NCBI GenBank assembly: GCA_944390045.1
Contig: CALXOO010000006.1
Location: 1 to 64,000, forward strand
From: an uncultured Spirochaetales bacterium
GTDB taxonomy: Bacteria; Spirochaetota; Spirochaetia; Sphaerochaetales; Sphaerochaetaceae
DNA: 64,000 bases
Direction of reading: 5' to 3'
Below, in pieces: positions 27,626-60,832 of this stretch. The position numbers and the translations under genes were made by a program. Numbering within the stretch: the first letter of the stretch is position 1; the number at the start of each line of letters is the position of its first letter. The notes beneath the pieces are model-generated. The model worked only from the letters and a program-made list of their open reading frames with translations, did not search any database and was not told the DNA's origin.

Positions 27626-28573
27626 TTGGAAGGCGAGGAGCAGTTTGACGTCCTTTTTGACAGGGAGGAAAAGCAGGTCTTCAGGACACCGGAGTTTGAG
27701 GGCCCGCTTGACCTTCTGCTTTACCAGATCCAGAAGTCCGAGATAAACATCTACGACATACCCATTGCCGAGATCACAGGACAGTTCCTCGACTACATCG
27801 AGGAGCACAAGGACAGCGGGCTGAAGAATCTGGCTGATTTCTACCGCATGGCCGCGGACCTGCTGTACATAAAGAGCAAGATGCTGCTTCCGGTGGAGGT
27901 CGAGTTTCCTGACGAGTACGAGGACCCGAGACAGGAGCTGGTCGAACGTCTGCTTGAGTACCAGAAGTTCAAGAAATACACGGACCTGCTGACCGGTTCC
28001 GCAGTCGGAGACAATTTCCACATTCCCCGGCGCGAGAATTTCTTTGCCCTGCCGTTTCAGGATGAGGATCTCTTCAGGGGATGTACGATAGATGATCTTT
28101 TCAGCGCCTTCAGGAACATAATAGAGAAAAAGGCGCCGACAAAGCTCTTCAACGTCTTTGAGGAAGTCTCTGTCAAGGAAAAGCGTGCCTACATGATGGA
28201 GCTGTTCGAGACAAAGGACCAGATCACGATCAGCGAGGTCATTGTCCACTTTGACCAGCCGCTGCACATCATCTGCTCGTTCATGGCCATTCTTGAGATG
28301 GCGAAGGACAAGGTCATCGTCTTCCAGCAGAATGAGCCGAACGGGGAGATCTACATAGTCCTCCGGCCCCAGGACTGGACTGCCAGCCTTGCCGAGGAGT
28401 ACGACAGGGACTATGATGAGGTGGTTGAGAACGACCTCGATGATCCTGATGACTTCAGCATCATCACAAAGGAGCGTCAGGAAGAGATAGACAGGGAGCT
28501 GGAGGAAGAGGGCGAGACTTCCATCGACGAGGAGTTTGTAGGAGACGAGGAAGACCTCCTCGATGACGACTGA
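27626..28573 (+). CDS. scpA: Segregation and condensation protein ScpA
   Basis: Kleisin that bridges the heads of the SMC dimer. The N-terminal motif FEGPLDLLLYQIQKSEINIYDIPIAEIT is typical, and the C-terminal winged-helix region (about residues 190-245) follows. An unusually acidic tail covers about the last 65 residues. The start codon is TTG at 27626. With 315 residues it is slightly long because of the tail. Its stop overlaps the scpB ATG. Its partner smc lies 30 kb away at 57992-60832. Confidence 0.92.
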   Translation: MEGEEQFDVLFDREEKQVFRTPEFEGPLDLLLYQIQKSEINIYDIPIAEITGQFLDYIEEHKDSGLKNLADFYRMAADLLYIKSKMLLPVEVEFPDEYEDPRQELVERLLEYQKFKKYTDLLTGSAVGDNFHIPRRENFFALPFQDEDLFRGCTIDDLFSAFRNIIEKKAPTKLFNVFEEVSVKEKRAYMMELFETKDQITISEVIVHFDQPLHIICSFMAILEMAKDKVIVFQQNEPNGEIYIVLRPQDWTASLAEEYDRDYDEVVENDLDDPDDFSIITKERQEEIDRELEEEGETSIDEEFVGDEEDLLDDD

Positions 28574-29151
28574 TGGCAAGAAACACATTGATGAGCACCG
28601 GAGCACGGCTCGTTGAGACCGTGCTCTTCATAGAGAACGAGTCGCTTCCGCTGGAACGCATAGCCTCCCTGACAGGACTGTCTGAAAGGGAGGTCGAGAA
28701 GGCTCTGGATGAGATTGCGGACGTTTATGAGGAGAGGGGACACGGCCTCAGGCTCAAGGAGAATTCCGACGGCTCGTGGGAGTTCGCCCCATGCACTGAC
28801 CTGTATGACATGCTCCGCAGCACATACGGCAGGAAGGTGGACAGGAGGCTGACGCGTGCGGCCATGGAGACACTTTCCATCGTGGCATACAGCCAGCCGA
28901 TAACCCGCAAGGAGATTGACAACATACGCGGTGTCGCATCGGACTCGATAGTCCGTCTGCTCAGGGAGAGGGAATATATCAAAGTTGTCGGCAGAAAGGA
29001 CGTCCAGGGACATCCATGCCTCTACGGCACAAGCAGGAAGTTCCTGTTCGAGTTCGGACTGAAGTCGATAAGCGACCTGCCGAAACTCAGCAGCATAGAC
29101 AAGCTCAGATTCGACAAGAGCGAGGAAGACAGGGAAGAAGATGGAGAATGA
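28573..29151 (+). CDS. scpB: Segregation and condensation protein ScpB
   Basis: Dimeric winged-helix partner of ScpA in the SMC complex. Family segments are LVETVLFIENESLPLERIASL at the start, RAAMETLSIVAYSQPITRKEIDNIRGV near residue 95 and LYGTSRKFLFEFGL near residue 156. The 192-residue length is normal. It starts on the scpA stop codon (TGATG). Confidence 0.94.
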   Translation: MARNTLMSTGARLVETVLFIENESLPLERIASLTGLSEREVEKALDEIADVYEERGHGLRLKENSDGSWEFAPCTDLYDMLRSTYGRKVDRRLTRAAMETLSIVAYSQPITRKEIDNIRGVASDSIVRLLREREYIKVVGRKDVQGHPCLYGTSRKFLFEFGLKSISDLPKLSSIDKLRFDKSEEDREEDGE

Positions 29152-54410: not shown

Positions 54411-54767
54411 TCAGTCAGCCTTCTTCTTGATGAGCTCCTTGACCTTGGCGGCCTTGCCGACTCTGTCACGCAGATAGTAGAGCTTGGCTCTTCTGACACG
54501 TCCTCTCCTGACAACCTCGATATGGTCAATCCTGGGTGAGTGCAGCGGGAAGATTCTCTCAACACCTACACCGTAGCTGATCTTCCTGACAACGAAGGAT
54601 CTCCTGATGCCTACATTGTTCTTGGCGATGACAATGCCCTCGAAGACCTGGATTCTCTCGGTTGTACCCTCAACAATCTTGAAAAATACCTTAACTGTGT
54701 CGCCGACAGAGAAGTTCTCTGCATCCTTCTTGATCTGTCTGGCCTCAATGGTTCTGATGATGTCCAT
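54411..54767 (-). CDS. rplS: 50S ribosomal protein L19
   Basis: Sits at the 30S-50S interface. It has the family opening [15 protein letters not shown], the core [23 protein letters not shown], and [25 protein letters not shown], in 118 residues. The ATG at 54767 matches the usual L19 start and has GGGG at eight bases. An ATG at 54773 overlapping the trmD stop is the alternative (120 residues). Confidence 0.95.
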
Positions 54768-54772
54768 AGACA

Positions 54773-55501
54773 TTACCCCTTCATTTCGTTTATCAAGTCT
54801 ATTAGTCTTCTTCGCACTTCCAGGTCGAGAGAGGCCCGGGAGAGCACTTCCGGTCGGCTCAGCATCGTTTTTTCGAGCTTACGGAAAACACGCCAGGTAG
54901 CAATCCTTTCGTGATGACCTGACAACAATACATCAGGAACGGATTTTGTGCAATACCTTTCCGGCCTTGTATATTGAGGATACTCAAGCAGCTGATCAGA
55001 GAAACTCTCATCCTCAAGGCTCTCGCTGGCGATGACACCGTCCAGGAGACGGTAGACCGCATCAATGATCACTGTAGTCGCGCTCTCTCCAGATGACAGA
55101 ACGTAGTCACCGATGCTGATCTCATCATCGACATAGGTGTCAATCACCCTCTGGTCCAGTCCTTCATAATGTCCGCAGATGAAGACAAGCGACTCTTCTC
55201 CTGAAAGCTCCTGGGCATATGACTGAGTGAAGAGGCGTCCGGATGGACTGGGATAGATGACGCGCTTGTCTCTGGCACCGATGCTTTCCAGGGCCTTGCA
55301 GAGAGGATCGCACTTGAGCACCATTCCCGCGCCTCCGCCGTATGGCAGGTCATCGCACTTGTGATGCGGATCTGTCGCGAAGTCACGGAAGTTTATTATG
55401 CTGTAGTCCACCAGTCCCTTCTCAACGGCACGGGACATGATGGATGAGGTGAAAAAGCTTTCCACCATCGGCGGAAAGAGTGTCAGGATATCTATGTGCA
55501 T
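54773..55501 (-). CDS. trmD: tRNA (guanine-N1-)-methyltransferase
   Basis: Methylates G37 in tRNAs to prevent frameshifting. Family segments are [34 protein letters not shown], the SAM-binding knot [15 protein letters not shown] and [15 protein letters not shown]. The 242-residue length fits. It sits between rimM (one-base overlap, TGATG) and rplS, the usual order. Confidence 0.96.
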
Positions 55502-56010
55502 CAGTCTGCGAGCTCCGCATTGAGCAGCTCGATCTCACCCTTCACGAAATCGGGCTTTGAAACGAAAGGCTCCATGTTGGGGATGATGATCTGGCTTCCA
55601 TCCGGACGGCGGACAAGCAGATAATCAGCCTGTGCCCCGTCGGCGACACTCTCCACAGTTCCAACCGCACGTCCTGCACACACAAGAGTGAGTCCGAAGA
55701 GATCTGCGATGTAGTACTCCCCCTCCTCCAGCTGTGGGCCGAGACTGCGTGGTATGTACATTATTCCGCCGGAGAGTATCTGTGCCTTCTCCTTGCTCTC
55801 ATAGCCAGAAAAACGCATGAGGAAGGCATCCGCGTGATGGGAAAAGTCCTTGACGGACACTTCCAGCCGCCTTGAGTCACGCCGCACTATCACGCAGCTT
55901 TCCAGGCGCTCGAGGTGACTGGTCTCACCGCTGTACGGATGAATGCGCACAAAGCCCTCCCATCCATGTGTCCTTCCGATTGATGCCGTAGCAAGAAGTT
56001 TCTCTTCCAT
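55501..56010 (-). CDS. rimM: 16S rRNA processing protein RimM
   Basis: Assists 30S head maturation with S19. 169 residues: an N-terminal RimM domain with TASIGRTHGWEGFVRIHPYSGE and a PRC-barrel half with EEGEYYIADLFGLTLVCAGRAVGTV and PNMEPFVSKPDF. The ATG at 56010 follows AGGATTAAT. A complete intrinsic terminator stands only 11 bases before the start codon, so expression of rimM-trmD-rplS must depend on readthrough or a promoter not recognised. Confidence 0.92.
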   Translation of the reverse strand: MEEKLLATASIGRTHGWEGFVRIHPYSGETSHLERLESCVIVRRDSRRLEVSVKDFSHHADAFLMRFSGYESKEKAQILSGGIMYIPRSLGPQLEEGEYYIADLFGLTLVCAGRAVGTVESVADGAQADYLLVRRPDGSQIIIPNMEPFVSKPDFVKGEIELLNAELAD

Positions 56011-56021
56011 ATTAATCCTGC

Positions 56022-56053
56022 AGAAAAAAAAGCGGCGGGTAGTGACTCCCGCC
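56022..56053 (-). terminator. Intrinsic terminator between khpA and rimM
   Basis: Minus strand: GGCGGG (56053-56048) pairs with CCCGCC (56039-56034), then GCTTTTTTTT. No convincing promoter was found between it and rimM, so it may act as an attenuator for rimM-trmD-rplS. Confidence 0.8.
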
Positions 56054-56059
56054 AGTCTA

Positions 56060-56293
56060 TCAGTCAAGTATCTCAAGGACAGCCCTCTTGCCGTCCTTGG
56101 TGGCACAGGCCGAGAGAATCGTCCTGATGGCCTTGGCAATGCGTCCCTGCTTGCCTATGACCTTGCCCACATCGTCCGATGCGACATGGAGTTCAAGTAT
56201 CGTGGACTTCTCGCCCTCGATTACATTGACACTGACCTCATCCGGTCTGTCCACTAGACTCTTGACCAGGAATTCAACCAGTTCTTTCTCCAT
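56060..56293 (-). CDS. khpA: KH-domain RNA-binding protein KhpA
   Basis: 77 residues, almost entirely one KH domain with the GxxG loop in [20 protein letters not shown]. KhpA commonly sits between rpsP and rimM, as here, and in Gram-positive bacteria pairs with KhpB to bind many RNAs. No khpB is in the window. It follows rpsP by 20 bases. Confidence 0.9.
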
Positions 56294-56313
56294 AGCCAGC
56301 TCCCAGAGTAGGA

Positions 56314-56577
56314 TCAGTTCTCGCTGGTGCGTGCTGTGGAAATACCCTGCTTGTTGAGAATCCTCTTGACTGTTGCAGAGGGCTGGGCACCCTTGACGAT
56401 CCAGGCCTTCGTCTTCTCACTGTCGATTGTGACCTGTCTGTCCTCGGCCTCGATCGGATGATAGGTTCCAAGCTCCTCGATTGTCTCGCTGCCCCTTGCG
56501 CTCCTGCTGTCCATGACAACAATGCGGTAATAGGGTCTCTTCTTGGTGCCAAAGCGCTTAAGTCTAATGCTTACCAC
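56314..56577 (-). CDS. rpsP: 30S ribosomal protein S16
   Basis: 87-residue assembly protein of the 30S subunit. The start [28 protein letters not shown] and the GTYHPI motif are diagnostic. It lies 29 bases after ffh and 20 bases before khpA on the same strand. Confidence 0.96.
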
Positions 56578-56606
56578 GGTGTTTCTCCTTATTCTACATG
56601 ATAGGC

Positions 56607-57938
56607 TCAGCTGAAATATCTGGACAGCTGTGCCTGTAATTTCTTGTTTGTCATAAGCTTCCTCAGCATGTTCTTCTGCTTTTCGAAGGTCTTGAGGAGC
56701 CTGTTCACATCGGCCACAGAGGTTCCGGATCCCTTTGCAATCCTCTTCCTCCTGCTTGGTCCGATGACACGGTAGTTGGACCGCTCGAACTTCGTCATCG
56801 ACTTGATGATCGCCTTCTGGATTTCAAACTCCTTCATGTCGATGTCGTCCTCGCTGATGTTTCCCTTCGCACCGGGAATCATCTCGAGGATCTTGTCGAT
56901 TGATCCCATCTTGTTCATGCCTTCCAGCTGGTCAAGGTAGTCCTGGAGATCGAAGGTGTTCTTCTGCATCTTCCGGGCCAGCTTCTCGGCCTCTTCCTCG
57001 TCATAGATCTGCTGTGCCTTCTCGACAAGAGAGACGACATCGCCCATGCCGAGGATGCGCTGTGCTATGCGGTCAGGATGGAAGACCTCAAGATCCTCAG
57101 GCTTCTCTCCTGTTCCGATGAACTTGAGGGGCTTGCCGACCACGCTCTTCAGGGAGAGCGCAGCACCGCCGCGGGTGTCTGAGTCAAACTTCGAGAGAAT
57201 GACGCCGCTGATGCCGACCTTCTCCTCGAACTCCTGCGCTATGGCGACGGCATTCTGTCCGGTCATCGCATCTGCGACGAAGAGAGTCTCATCAGGGTGG
57301 ACCGCATCCGCGATGTCACGGATCTCCTTCATCAGCGACTCATCCAGATGCATGCGTCCGCTGGTATCGATGATCACGGTGTCATAAAGCTCATGACGTG
57401 CCGTTGCGACTGCCTCACGTGCGACCCTGACCGGATTCTTCTCTCCGGGGATGGTGAAGACGCGTACGCCGACCTTCTCTCCGAGCACCTGGAGCTGGGT
57501 GATGGCGGCAGGACGGACCAGGTCCGCCGCTACCAGCATGACCTTGCGGCCCTGCTCACGTGTCAGCTTGAGTGCCAGCTTGCTTGCGGTAGTGGTCTTT
57601 CCGGAACCCTGAAGGCCCATCATCAGGATGATGCTCGTGGCATCCTTTCCCTTGAGGTTCAGTCCCTGTCCGTCACCGCCGAGAAGCGCAACCATCTTGT
57701 CATAGACGATCTTCGTGAACTGCTGGCCGGGATCGACTGAGAGAAGCACCTTCTCTCCAAGCGCCTCTTCCAGCGTGGAATTGATGAATCTTCTGACTAC
57801 ACGGAGGTTGACGTCCGCATCCAGCAGGGAGATCTTGATCTCCTCAACCGCATCACGGATGTTCTTCTCGGTGATTTTGCCCTTTCCTGAAAGGGTCTTC
57901 ATGATGGAACCGAACTTGGTGCTTAGACTGTCAAACAT
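56607..57938 (-). CDS. ffh: Signal recognition particle protein Ffh
   Basis: GTPase that delivers nascent membrane proteins to the translocon. N domain, G domain (P-loop GLQGSGKTTTASKLA, DTSGRMHLD, TKFD-type LSKFDSDTRGGAALS) and methionine-rich M domain (about residues 300-443) are complete in 443 residues. A good promoter overlaps the end of smc just upstream. The SRP RNA gene was not found in the window. Confidence 0.97.
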   Translation of the reverse strand: MFDSLSTKFGSIMKTLSGKGKITEKNIRDAVEEIKISLLDADVNLRVVRRFINSTLEEALGEKVLLSVDPGQQFTKIVYDKMVALLGGDGQGLNLKGKDATSIILMMGLQGSGKTTTASKLALKLTREQGRKVMLVAADLVRPAAITQLQVLGEKVGVRVFTIPGEKNPVRVAREAVATARHELYDTVIIDTSGRMHLDESLMKEIRDIADAVHPDETLFVADAMTGQNAVAIAQEFEEKVGISGVILSKFDSDTRGGAALSLKSVVGKPLKFIGTGEKPEDLEVFHPDRIAQRILGMGDVVSLVEKAQQIYDEEEAEKLARKMQKNTFDLQDYLDQLEGMNKMGSIDKILEMIPGAKGNISEDDIDMKEFEIQKAIIKSMTKFERSNYRVIGPSRRKRIAKGSGTSVADVNRLLKTFEKQKNMLRKLMTNKKLQAQLSRYFS

Positions 57939-57965: not shown

Positions 57966-57995
57966 TTTATACAGTTTTTCCGCTCCACTCGTCAA
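57966..57995 (-). promoter_or_regulatory. Promoter of ffh
   Basis: Minus strand: TTGACG (57995-57990), 18-base spacer, TATAAA (57971-57966). The -35 box includes the smc stop codon. Transcription should start near 57960, leaving a 22-base leader with GAGG before the ffh ATG. Confidence 0.65.
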
Positions 57996-60832
57996 GATTT
58001 TTCCCTTCTCTTGCCGTCCTCATCGAAGTCGACGCGTCTGTCTTCCTCGTCAAGGATGACCGCCTCTCCTGCGATGTTGGCCAGCTTGTAAGTCACAGTT
58101 GTCGAGACACCGGCCTCCATCTGGGTCACACCGAGAAGGGACTGTGAGCCCATGACTGTGTGCGTGTTGTGGGTAATGATGATGAACTGGCTTGTCTGGC
58201 TGAAATCCTGAAGCACGTTCAGGAAGTAGCCGATGTTCTTGTCGTCAAGGGCCGCGTCGATCTCGTCGAGGATGCAGAACGGGCTTGGCTTGACCAGGTA
58301 GGTCGCGAAAAGAAGCGCGACGGCTGTCATGCTCCTTTCTCCGCCGGAGAGCAGAGTAAGGCTGATCAGCTTCTTTCCAGGTGGCTGGGCGAAGATGTCG
58401 ATTCCGCTGGTGAGCACATTCTCCTCATCAGCCAGAGTGATCTCTGCCCTGCCTCCGTTGAAGAGGCGCTTGAACATGGCCTGGAAATTGTCGCTGATCT
58501 GCTTATATGTCGCCATGAACATATCGATGCTTTTCTGCTGGATTTCCTCAAGGACCTTCTCCAGATCGGCCTTGGCCTTGTTCAGGTCATCCAGCTGCTT
58601 GGAGTAGAAGTTGTACCTCTCCTCGGCCTCCTTGAAGTCATCGACGGCCATGTGATTGATGTTCGGTCCGAGTGCGGCGATCTGCTTGCGCACCTCATCG
58701 AGCTCGTTCTGGACCAGTCTCTCATCAGGCAGGTCCTGCTGGGTGAGTCTGTCCTGATACTCGTTGAGACTTCTGGAATAAGTGTTGAAGAAGCTCGTGA
58801 AGAGCATCTTGATCTGCTCGTCCGCCTGCTGGGACCACAGGTCTGCCTTCTCTATCTCGTTCCTGAGATTGTGGATGGTCTCTATGGTGCCTTCCTTGCG
58901 CTTCTCCTTCTCGCCCAGACGGCTGTTGAGGCTCCTGATCTCATCCATCACAGACTGAAGCTGGTCCTTGTAGGAGGCAATGCTCTCAGCGAGTTCTGCC
59001 TTCTCCTCCTCTGCCCGCCTTATGTTCTGTGAGGTCTCTGTGATCCTCTGCTCATAGAAAGCCAGCTTGGTTCTGGCATCGTCCAGCGCTGCAGTGTTCT
59101 CCTCAATGCTTCTTCTTATGTTGAGCGCGATCTGCTTCGCACTGTCCAGTGAGGCCTGCATGGAGGCGACCTTGATCTCGATGGATTTGACCATCTCCCG
59201 CAGTGAGTCGATCTCCTGGCTCAGGGAGCTGATGCTCTGGCGGCAGGCAGCTATGTTCAGGCGGCTTTTCTCAATTCTCCGCCTGCACTCATCCTCTTCC
59301 TGCGTGATGCTCCGCTTGCGCGTGAGAAGACCTTCCGGAGCAAGAAGCGAGTCAATGAAGGGCGGAATAGTTCCACGGTATGAGGAGAAAGCCTTTCCGA
59401 GCTCCTCAAGCTGGGCTGAGAGAGACTCCAGATCCTGAAGTATCCTCTCCCGGGCATCAAGATCCTCTGGCATGTCGCGGTAGAAGCTCACTTTATCCGC
59501 AATGCGCCTGAGGATTGACTCAAGGCGCTGTGTGAAGTCCTTCTCACAGGCGCTGCGCCTCTGATGGGAATATTCCTGTCCCATCTTCTCGTCCAGTTCA
59601 AGCGCAAGATCCTCAATGACCTTCTTCAGCTGTCCGCCGAGTTCCTCAATGCGCTTCTCATTGTCGAGAATGTTCTGCTCCTCAGCCTCCAGTCTCCCGT
59701 TCTCGGTGTCAACCTTGGCCAGATCCTCCTCAATCATCCTGTTGGCATGCTTGAGCTGTCCCAGAGACTCATCAAGTCTGTCCTGCTTTTCGGCAATCGA
59801 ATCCTCATTCTCCTCCAGCTCCCTCCTGTCCCTCTCGATGAGGGCGTTGTAGCTGGACAGCTTGTCAGTGAACTCGTCTCTGTTCCTCAGGTATTCACGG
59901 TACTGGTCATCAAGGATCTTTATCCTCTCATTCCGGCTGTTGATCGTCTCCTCGGCACGGTTGATGCTGGTCTGCAGCTCAAATGAACCCTTGTTCTTCT
60001 CCCTTACGAGGGCCTGGTCCTCCTCTATGTCTGCCTTGAAGCCGTCAAGACTGGATGTCAGGGCCTCGAGCTGCTTCTCGTTGCTCGCCTTCTGCTGGAT
60101 GCGCAGGTCCTTGAGCTTCTGGAAGGTCTGGATCTGTATGGAGTGGAGTGTTACATCAAGGTCGAGCTGCTTCTTGACCAGCTCGTTGTAGTTTATCGCC
60201 TTCTCCGCCTGGTTCTTGAGTGAATTGTATGTCCTCTTTTCGGTTGCCAGCCTGATTTCGACCTGGGCTATGTTCTCGTTAGTCCTGTCGATCTTCTTCT
60301 GGGCCTCGTTGCATTCCACCTTGAAACGGCTGATGCCGGCCGCCTCTTCGAAAATATAGCGTCTGTCCTCAGGCTTCGAGGAGAGAATCTGGTCGATCTT
60401 TCCCTGCTCCAGGATCGAGTACGCGCTCTTGCCGATTCCCGTATCGAAAAAAAGCTCCCTGATGTTCTTCAGCAGACAGCGCTGTCGGTTGATGTAATAC
60501 TCGCTCTCGCCGGAGCGGAAGACACGGCGCTTGATCTCGATCTCTGCCAGATCCGTCTGAAGCTTGTGCTCGCTGTTGTCAATCGTGAGGGCCACTTCGG
60601 CGAACTGCAGCGGCTTTCTGGTGTCAGTGCCGTTGAAGATGACATCCTCCATTTTTCCGGCTCTGAGTGTCTTGGTGCTCTGCTCACCCAGAACCCATTT
60701 GATCGAGTCGACGATGTTGCTCTTGCCGCAGCCGTTCGGGCCCAGAAGGCTGGTTATGCCATCAGAGAAGTCGATATGGGTCTTGTCGGCAAAACTCTTG
60801 AAGCCGTTGATGTCCAGGGATTTGAGAAACAA
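57992..60832 (-). CDS. smc: Chromosome segregation ATPase SMC, short form without recognisable hinge
   Basis: Head parts are intact: Walker A GPNGCGKSNIVDSIKWVLGEQS near residue 32, the signature LLSGGERSMTAVALLFA and Walker B CILDEIDAALDDKN near the C-terminus. About 300 residues of coiled coil run out and back, but between them (about residues 480-505) stands only a short Pro/Gly/Tyr-rich stretch (SSYRGTIPPFIDSLLAPEG). Typical SMC has a globular hinge of about 150 residues there and totals near 1180; this one has 946. The start is TTG at 60832 with AGGAG seven bases upstream. ScpA and ScpB genes are present at 27626-29151. Confidence 0.9.
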   Translation of the reverse strand: MFLKSLDINGFKSFADKTHIDFSDGITSLLGPNGCGKSNIVDSIKWVLGEQSTKTLRAGKMEDVIFNGTDTRKPLQFAEVALTIDNSEHKLQTDLAEIEIKRRVFRSGESEYYINRQRCLLKNIRELFFDTGIGKSAYSILEQGKIDQILSSKPEDRRYIFEEAAGISRFKVECNEAQKKIDRTNENIAQVEIRLATEKRTYNSLKNQAEKAINYNELVKKQLDLDVTLHSIQIQTFQKLKDLRIQQKASNEKQLEALTSSLDGFKADIEEDQALVREKNKGSFELQTSINRAEETINSRNERIKILDDQYREYLRNRDEFTDKLSSYNALIERDRRELEENEDSIAEKQDRLDESLGQLKHANRMIEEDLAKVDTENGRLEAEEQNILDNEKRIEELGGQLKKVIEDLALELDEKMGQEYSHQRRSACEKDFTQRLESILRRIADKVSFYRDMPEDLDARERILQDLESLSAQLEELGKAFSSYRGTIPPFIDSLLAPEGLLTRKRSITQEEDECRRRIEKSRLNIAACRQSISSLSQEIDSLREMVKSIEIKVASMQASLDSAKQIALNIRRSIEENTAALDDARTKLAFYEQRITETSQNIRRAEEEKAELAESIASYKDQLQSVMDEIRSLNSRLGEKEKRKEGTIETIHNLRNEIEKADLWSQQADEQIKMLFTSFFNTYSRSLNEYQDRLTQQDLPDERLVQNELDEVRKQIAALGPNINHMAVDDFKEAEERYNFYSKQLDDLNKAKADLEKVLEEIQQKSIDMFMATYKQISDNFQAMFKRLFNGGRAEITLADEENVLTSGIDIFAQPPGKKLISLTLLSGGERSMTAVALLFATYLVKPSPFCILDEIDAALDDKNIGYFLNVLQDFSQTSQFIIITHNTHTVMGSQSLLGVTQMEAGVSTTVTYKLANIAGEAVILDEEDRRVDFDEDGKRREKS

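Follow-up and report, generated by a model that had tools for sequence, protein, structure and literature searches.

The Smc protein encoded in the window (viz. the whole stretch of 64,000 nucleotides analysed here, from an uncultured Spirochaetales bacterium) is an ordinary, vertically inherited bacterial Smc of the condensin type, 946 aa in length, which is lacking the hinge domain. Based on structure models and sequence comparisons, its arm is predicted to be one continuous, all-helical antiparallel rod, whose turn is short and lies near residue 456, and the segment comprising residues 482-510, which together with the facing stretch of the outgoing strand is referred to here as the knuckle, is predicted to be a conserved break in the returning strand and not the turn. 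The hinge, by which two Smc molecules are joined in other bacteria, is treated as a universal part of the SMC complexes, where it serves as the dimer contact, as a proposed gate for DNA and as a DNA-binding site. A phylum of bacteria having Smc, ScpA and (mostly) ScpB, but no hinge, constitutes a natural experiment in which the roles of the hinge are separated from those of the heads, arms and kleisin, and in it one can directly test whether the hinge has to open for DNA to be loaded or for obstacles to be bypassed.

The protein matches the TIGR02168 (SMC_prok_B) model with a score of 780.7 bits (cut-off 567), its match to SMC_N spans residues 2-910, and its nearest full-length relative from Spirochaetales is 78% identical to it. 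The first-pass annotation of this DNA had described both ATPase halves as canonical, and this is borne out by the TIGR02168 score and by the intact motifs, viz. Walker A (GPNGCGKSN) at residue 31, the signature (LSGGERSMTA) at residue 828 and Walker B (CILDEIDAALDD) at residue 853. The protein fails the test for RecN (TIGR00634, 45.7 bits against a cut-off of 407.85), and no second Smc is found in the genome, where all other matches to TIGR02168 score below 20 bits. The genes in the vicinity, from ffh to rplS (Table 1), form a block that is familiar from B. subtilis, and the arrangement smc-ffh-rpsP-khpA-rimM-trmD-rplS is an ancestral, orthologous neighbourhood. The genes for ScpA and ScpB, whose presence had also been noted earlier and is upheld by matches to their profiles within the window, share a single base at their junction, and downstream of them lies a pseudouridine-synthase-like gene; beside ScpA and ScpB, a ParB gene is present elsewhere in the genome. 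As both ScpA and ScpB are encoded, the earlier expectation of a condensin-type complex is judged to be right. However, of the characteristics of a condensin-type Smc, the heads, ScpA/ScpB and the gene neighbourhood are all found, whereas the PF06470 hinge is not, and due to this the protein is assigned here to a hinge-less variant and not to the canonical members. The start of smc at position 60832 is predicted to be TTG, and the start of the B. burgdorferi smc is likewise given as ttg (PMC9712426).

Table 1. Coordinates of the smc gene, its parts and its partner genes in the window.
Feature	Position	Strand	Basis
smc, hinge-less, 946 aa, TTG start	57992..60832	(-)	Intact ORF; TIGR02168; full-length Spirochaetales relatives
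N-terminal ATPase half, residues 1-165, Walker A 31-39	60338..60832	(-)	SMC_N match, motif position
Outgoing arm strand, residues 166-414	59591..60337	(-)	AlphaFold2 helices 168-259, 263-414; 237-aa spacing
Knuckle, outgoing side, residues 402-422	59567..59629	(-)	Conservation peak, heptad break near 400-430, helix break 415-422
Distal coiled-coil hairpin beyond knuckle, residues 423-488	59369..59566	(-)	Helices 423-452, 460-488; pairs 430-482, 432-481
Tip turn, length-variable, residues 453-460	59453..59476	(-)	Alignment gaps, loop in both models, register midpoint
Knuckle, returning side, residues 482-510, including PPFIDSLLAPEGLLTRKRSI	59303..59389	(-)	Top arm conservation; G501, K506
Returning arm strand, residues 502-745	58598..59329	(-)	AlphaFold2 helix 502-685 and following
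C-terminal ATPase half, residues 746-917, signature 828, Walker B 853	58082..58597	(-)	TIGR02168 match to model end, motif positions
ffh, rpsP, khpA, rimM, trmD, rplS beside smc	54411..57938	(-)	Pfam matches
scpA (kleisin)	27626..28573	(+)	PF02616 E 1.9e-26, ORF
scpB	28573..29151	(+)	PF04079 E 1.6e-48, ORF

The claim that the hinge is missing, which had been made from the letters of the sequence, is confirmed by profile searches. The alignment of the protein to TIGR02168 consists of two blocks, in which residues 2-484 correspond to model positions 1-481 and residues 504-917 to positions 770-1181, and hence the model positions 482-769, which comprise the hinge and its flanking coil, have no counterpart in this Smc. 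Further, the PF06470 (SMC_hinge) profile has no match anywhere in the genome (a 2.0 Mb draft, estimated to be ~91% complete), and thus gives no indication of a separate hinge-bearing partner gene; of the 14 control genomes, 10 yield hinges in this search. Very diverged domains can escape profile searches, and a strongly diverged or separately encoded hinge could in this manner have been missed. However, in addition to the empty search of the genome, no hinge fold is predicted at residues 440-540, as AlphaFold2 predicts no strand between residues 143 and 795, the tip region when modelled alone is again all helix (mean pLDDT 87.5), and the coevolution described below leaves no space for an inserted domain. 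The explanation that a hinge has been overlooked is therefore highly improbable, and it is already close to refuted.

The AlphaFold2 models, which are of monomers, place helices at residues 168-259, 263-414, 423-452, 460-488, 492-497 and 502-685 (59 relatives, mean pLDDT 77.7), and the length variation among the relatives, as seen from alignment gaps, is concentrated at ~453-465. In a direct-coupling analysis of 239-242 sequences from the phylum (effective number 172), 14 of the top 40 pairs lie on an antiparallel register with i+j = 909-917 (~913), compared with 2.0 expected and 1-2 obtained with column shuffles; the strongest coevolving pairs are 430-482, 432-481, 421-494, 413-497, 395-518 and 377-534. 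When only 142 sequences were used, this register held 9 of the top 20 pairs (0.9 expected). The register signal is not visible when the 39 sequences from outside the class are used alone, and coevolution over the whole arm was too noisy, there being 142 sequences for 626 positions. As the predicted helices, the length variation and the coevolution register all agree, the turn is placed near residue 456. In this regard the first-pass annotation, in which the two arms were joined by a linker of ~25 residues at 480-505, has to be corrected, as the models, the coevolving pairs and the alignment gaps all indicate a turn at ~453-460 instead. Taking the head boundary at 165, the turn at 456 and the start of the C-terminal head near 742, the two strands of the rod are nearly equal in length (~291 and 286 residues).

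A different arrangement of the apical region, in which residues 402-501 form a four-helix domain folded back on the arm, was rejected, as the register is a straight antiparallel one and fold-back pairs are not in excess. When the sequence of the tip region was searched against PDB and Pfam, coiled-coil noise was all that was returned, and a fold search with the tip model returned only generic helical rods, the best of them being a coiled-coil segment of the Pyrococcus yayanosii Smc (5xg2; Z 11.7, rmsd 8.6, 152 aligned), a match that does not rise above the noise expected for long helices. No relative of the tip was revealed when viral contigs were scanned for its pattern. The A2 profile of the tip region has matches in 138 of 247 Spirochaetota genomes, nearly all of which lie within the Smc ORF. 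Nearer to the head, two other conserved arm stretches are seen at positions 60122-60184 and 58754-58816 (Smc residues 217-237 and 673-693), and these probably correspond to the joint, which in other Smc proteins is in contact with ParB.

When the heads are excluded, conservation over 21 residues is highest at 490-510 in the class alignment and in the phylum alignment alike, and residues 402-422 (397-417 phylum-wide) are among the top three. Within the returning side, G501 is retained in 228 and K506 in 234 of the 242 phylum sequences, and these two nearly invariant residues offer targets for mutation within a small region. The coevolving pairs 413-497, 416-496, 417-492, 417-499 and 421-494 set the two sides of the knuckle face to face, about 35 residues below the tip. 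The distance from the end of the N-terminal head (residue 165) to residue 402 is 237 residues in all 59 class members and in 32 of 44 phylum-wide representatives, and it is 325 in five forms with long arms; the part of the arm beyond the knuckle varies from 80 to 118 residues across the class. The long-arm proteins (L154, L155, L036, L159 and L163, in genomes G014, G026, G045, G037 and G094, respectively) have the same knuckle, and their returning strand is also ~74 residues longer. Based on this conservation and on the fixed distance from the head, the segment at 480-505 is probably of functional importance, and not just a linker. In prokaryotic Smc proteins, the head-to-hinge lengths have modes at 238 and 341 residues (Burmann and colleagues, PMC5344682), to which the 237 and 325 residues of the present proteins are close; that survey began from hinge sequences and due to this the hinge-less Smc of spirochaetes would not have been included in it. 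As the head boundaries were defined differently, the correspondence between 237 and 238 can be claimed only to within about 10-15 residues.

The absence of the hinge extends to the entire phylum. An Smc scoring above the TIGR02168 cut-off is present in 203 of 247 Spirochaetota genomes, and SMC_hinge matches were found in only 3 of the 247, one of them above cut-off and none of them in an Smc. The sole match above cut-off is in a JetC/Wadjet-like protein of ~1085 aa (L006 in genome G116), which is separate from the Smc of that genome, and the other two matches, judged by reading the sequence alone, look like phosphofructokinases. The Smc ORFs of the phylum range from ~820 aa (family f5, Borrelia-type) up to ~1130 aa, and the long ORFs are also lacking a hinge and have the same tip region on longer arms. 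As the hinge-less architecture recurs in about 80 named records and in more than 100 other genomes, an assembly error is excluded. No hinge being present in any Smc of the 247 genomes, while hinges are found in 10 of the 14 control genomes, which made up the survey outside Spirochaetota, the simplest history is that the hinge was probably lost once, before Spirochaetota radiated. A search of the literature revealed no report on the absence of the hinge throughout the spirochaetes; Soppa (2001, Gene) reportedly noted that in several bacterial Smc proteins the hinge and coil regions are shorter. With regard to the partners, ScpA was found in all 45 near-complete genomes (from a sample of 60) and ScpB in 214 of the 247 genomes. 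ScpB is absent throughout families f5 (Borrelia-type) and f9 (e.g. G229, G237, G149, G238), and its absence across f5 agrees with that published for B. burgdorferi (PMC10406323). Several f5 genomes (G134, G180, G242, G244) and both f9 genomes show only weak TIGR02168 matches, and in these genomes Smc may have been lost or become highly diverged.

A complex of this kind would, as a logical consequence, have to dimerise or load differently from one with a hinged Smc, given that the B. subtilis Smc is inactivated when hinge dimerisation is abolished (PMC5344682). Cells of B. subtilis in which the hinge has been swapped for the Rad50 zinc hook grow normally on rich medium (PMC5344682), from which it follows that the hinge fold itself is dispensable and that dimerisation is what matters. 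As shown by profile searches, coevolution and structure prediction, each monomer consists of a head and an uninterrupted antiparallel coiled-coil rod with its short turn near residue 456. In the mechanism that we propose, two Smc rods would be held together distally by the knuckle in place of the hinge, and the heads together with ScpA/ScpB would close the other end of the complex. Since a hinge channel would be lacking, DNA would pass in and out at the head/kleisin side only, and the bypass of obstacles via the hinge would be impossible. The hinge has been argued to be a gate for obstacle bypass, and some SMC complexes to be without a hinge channel (PMC12647877); in terms of the proposed mechanism, the spirochaete Smc would be an extreme case among them. 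The reading preferred here, viz. a vertically inherited Smc of the Smc-ScpAB type whose hinge was lost before the phylum radiated and whose knuckle forms the distal contact of two rods, has in our judgement an even chance of being correct. The broader proposal, that Smc-ScpAB condensin throughout the phylum is joined by a previously undescribed knuckle contact on coiled-coil rods, making hinge gating unnecessary, is made tentatively, with somewhat less than even confidence.

A distal contact between the rods may also be lacking altogether, in which case the monomers would meet via ATP-dependent head engagement and ScpA, and the complex would be a clamp near the heads with an open far end. Nothing globular is seen at the tip, the length of the turn is variable, and the Borrelia Smc does not align the chromosome arms in Hi-C (PMC10406323), all of which would suit such an arrangement. 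However, the inactivity of the B. subtilis Smc upon loss of hinge dimerisation (PMC5344682) speaks against it, the strict spacing of 237 aa and the conserved knuckle imply that something distal is of importance, and the Hi-C pattern of Borrelia may be explained by its lack of ScpB; the absence of a distal contact is thus possible, but rather unlikely. The Borreliaceae also bear on the knuckle contact itself. In their Smc the arm is shorter, with 204 aa to the aligned position, and the tip profile has no match, yet this Smc functions in vivo, which counts against the proposed contact, although it does so in the absence of ScpB and with chromosome arms that are not juxtaposed in Hi-C. Lastly, the role of the knuckle could be a different one, viz. 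that of a simple, elbow-like bend, of a site that contacts DNA or another protein, or of a dock for a partner bridging two rods. Functional breaks, viz. the joint and the elbow, are known in SMC arms elsewhere, and DNA or protein could be bound via K506, which is nearly invariant, and via the aromatic and hydrophobic residues that are conserved in the knuckle. However, an unsystematic look revealed no candidate partner, and the knuckle lies as far from the head as a hinge does, and we regard this explanation as unlikely.

In comparison to known systems, the spirochaete Smc has in common with the Smc-ScpAB of the B. subtilis type the ATPase heads, the coiled-coil arm, ScpA and ScpB, and the ancestral gene neighbourhood. 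However, it is about 940 aa in length as against about 1180 aa, it has no hinge, its arm ends in a plain hairpin turn, and a conserved knuckle is present below the tip. With Rad50/SbcC it shares heads and a coiled coil whose tip is without a hinge, but those proteins dimerise by a CXXC zinc hook, whereas the spirochaete Smc has none (no cysteine is conserved in the tip region of 59 sequences, the highest fraction being about 0.10 at residue 516) and its match to Smc is far stronger than that to Rad50. In 2025, 'hinge-less' SMC proteins forming a cluster were reported from uncultured marine Actinobacteria, without mention of spirochaetes (PMC12153180). Those proteins, compared here by their description only, likewise have heads and a coiled coil with neither hinge nor zinc hook, but they belong to another lineage and are known from ocean gene catalogues only (PMC12153180). 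Hence, in the literature searched, the loss of the hinge is itself already reported, but not for spirochaetes, nor with partners and gene context, nor with a conserved site in its place. The Smc of Borrelia burgdorferi (BB0045) is from the same phylum, and the sampled Borrelia-type f5 genomes encode an Smc of ~821 aa which also has no hinge; the Borrelia-type protein differs from the one described here in its shorter arm, in the lack of a match to the tip-region profile and in the absence of ScpB. The hinge goes unmentioned in the main text of the two studies on the Borrelia Smc (PMC9712426, PMC10406323). In the first of these studies, foci of the B. burgdorferi Smc were seen, and the protein was recruited by ParB and had a part in the segregation of origins (PMC9712426); in the second, it promoted contacts over long distances but did not align the chromosome arms (PMC10406323). 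The two studies show that a hinge-less Smc can be recruited by ParB and can shape the chromosome.
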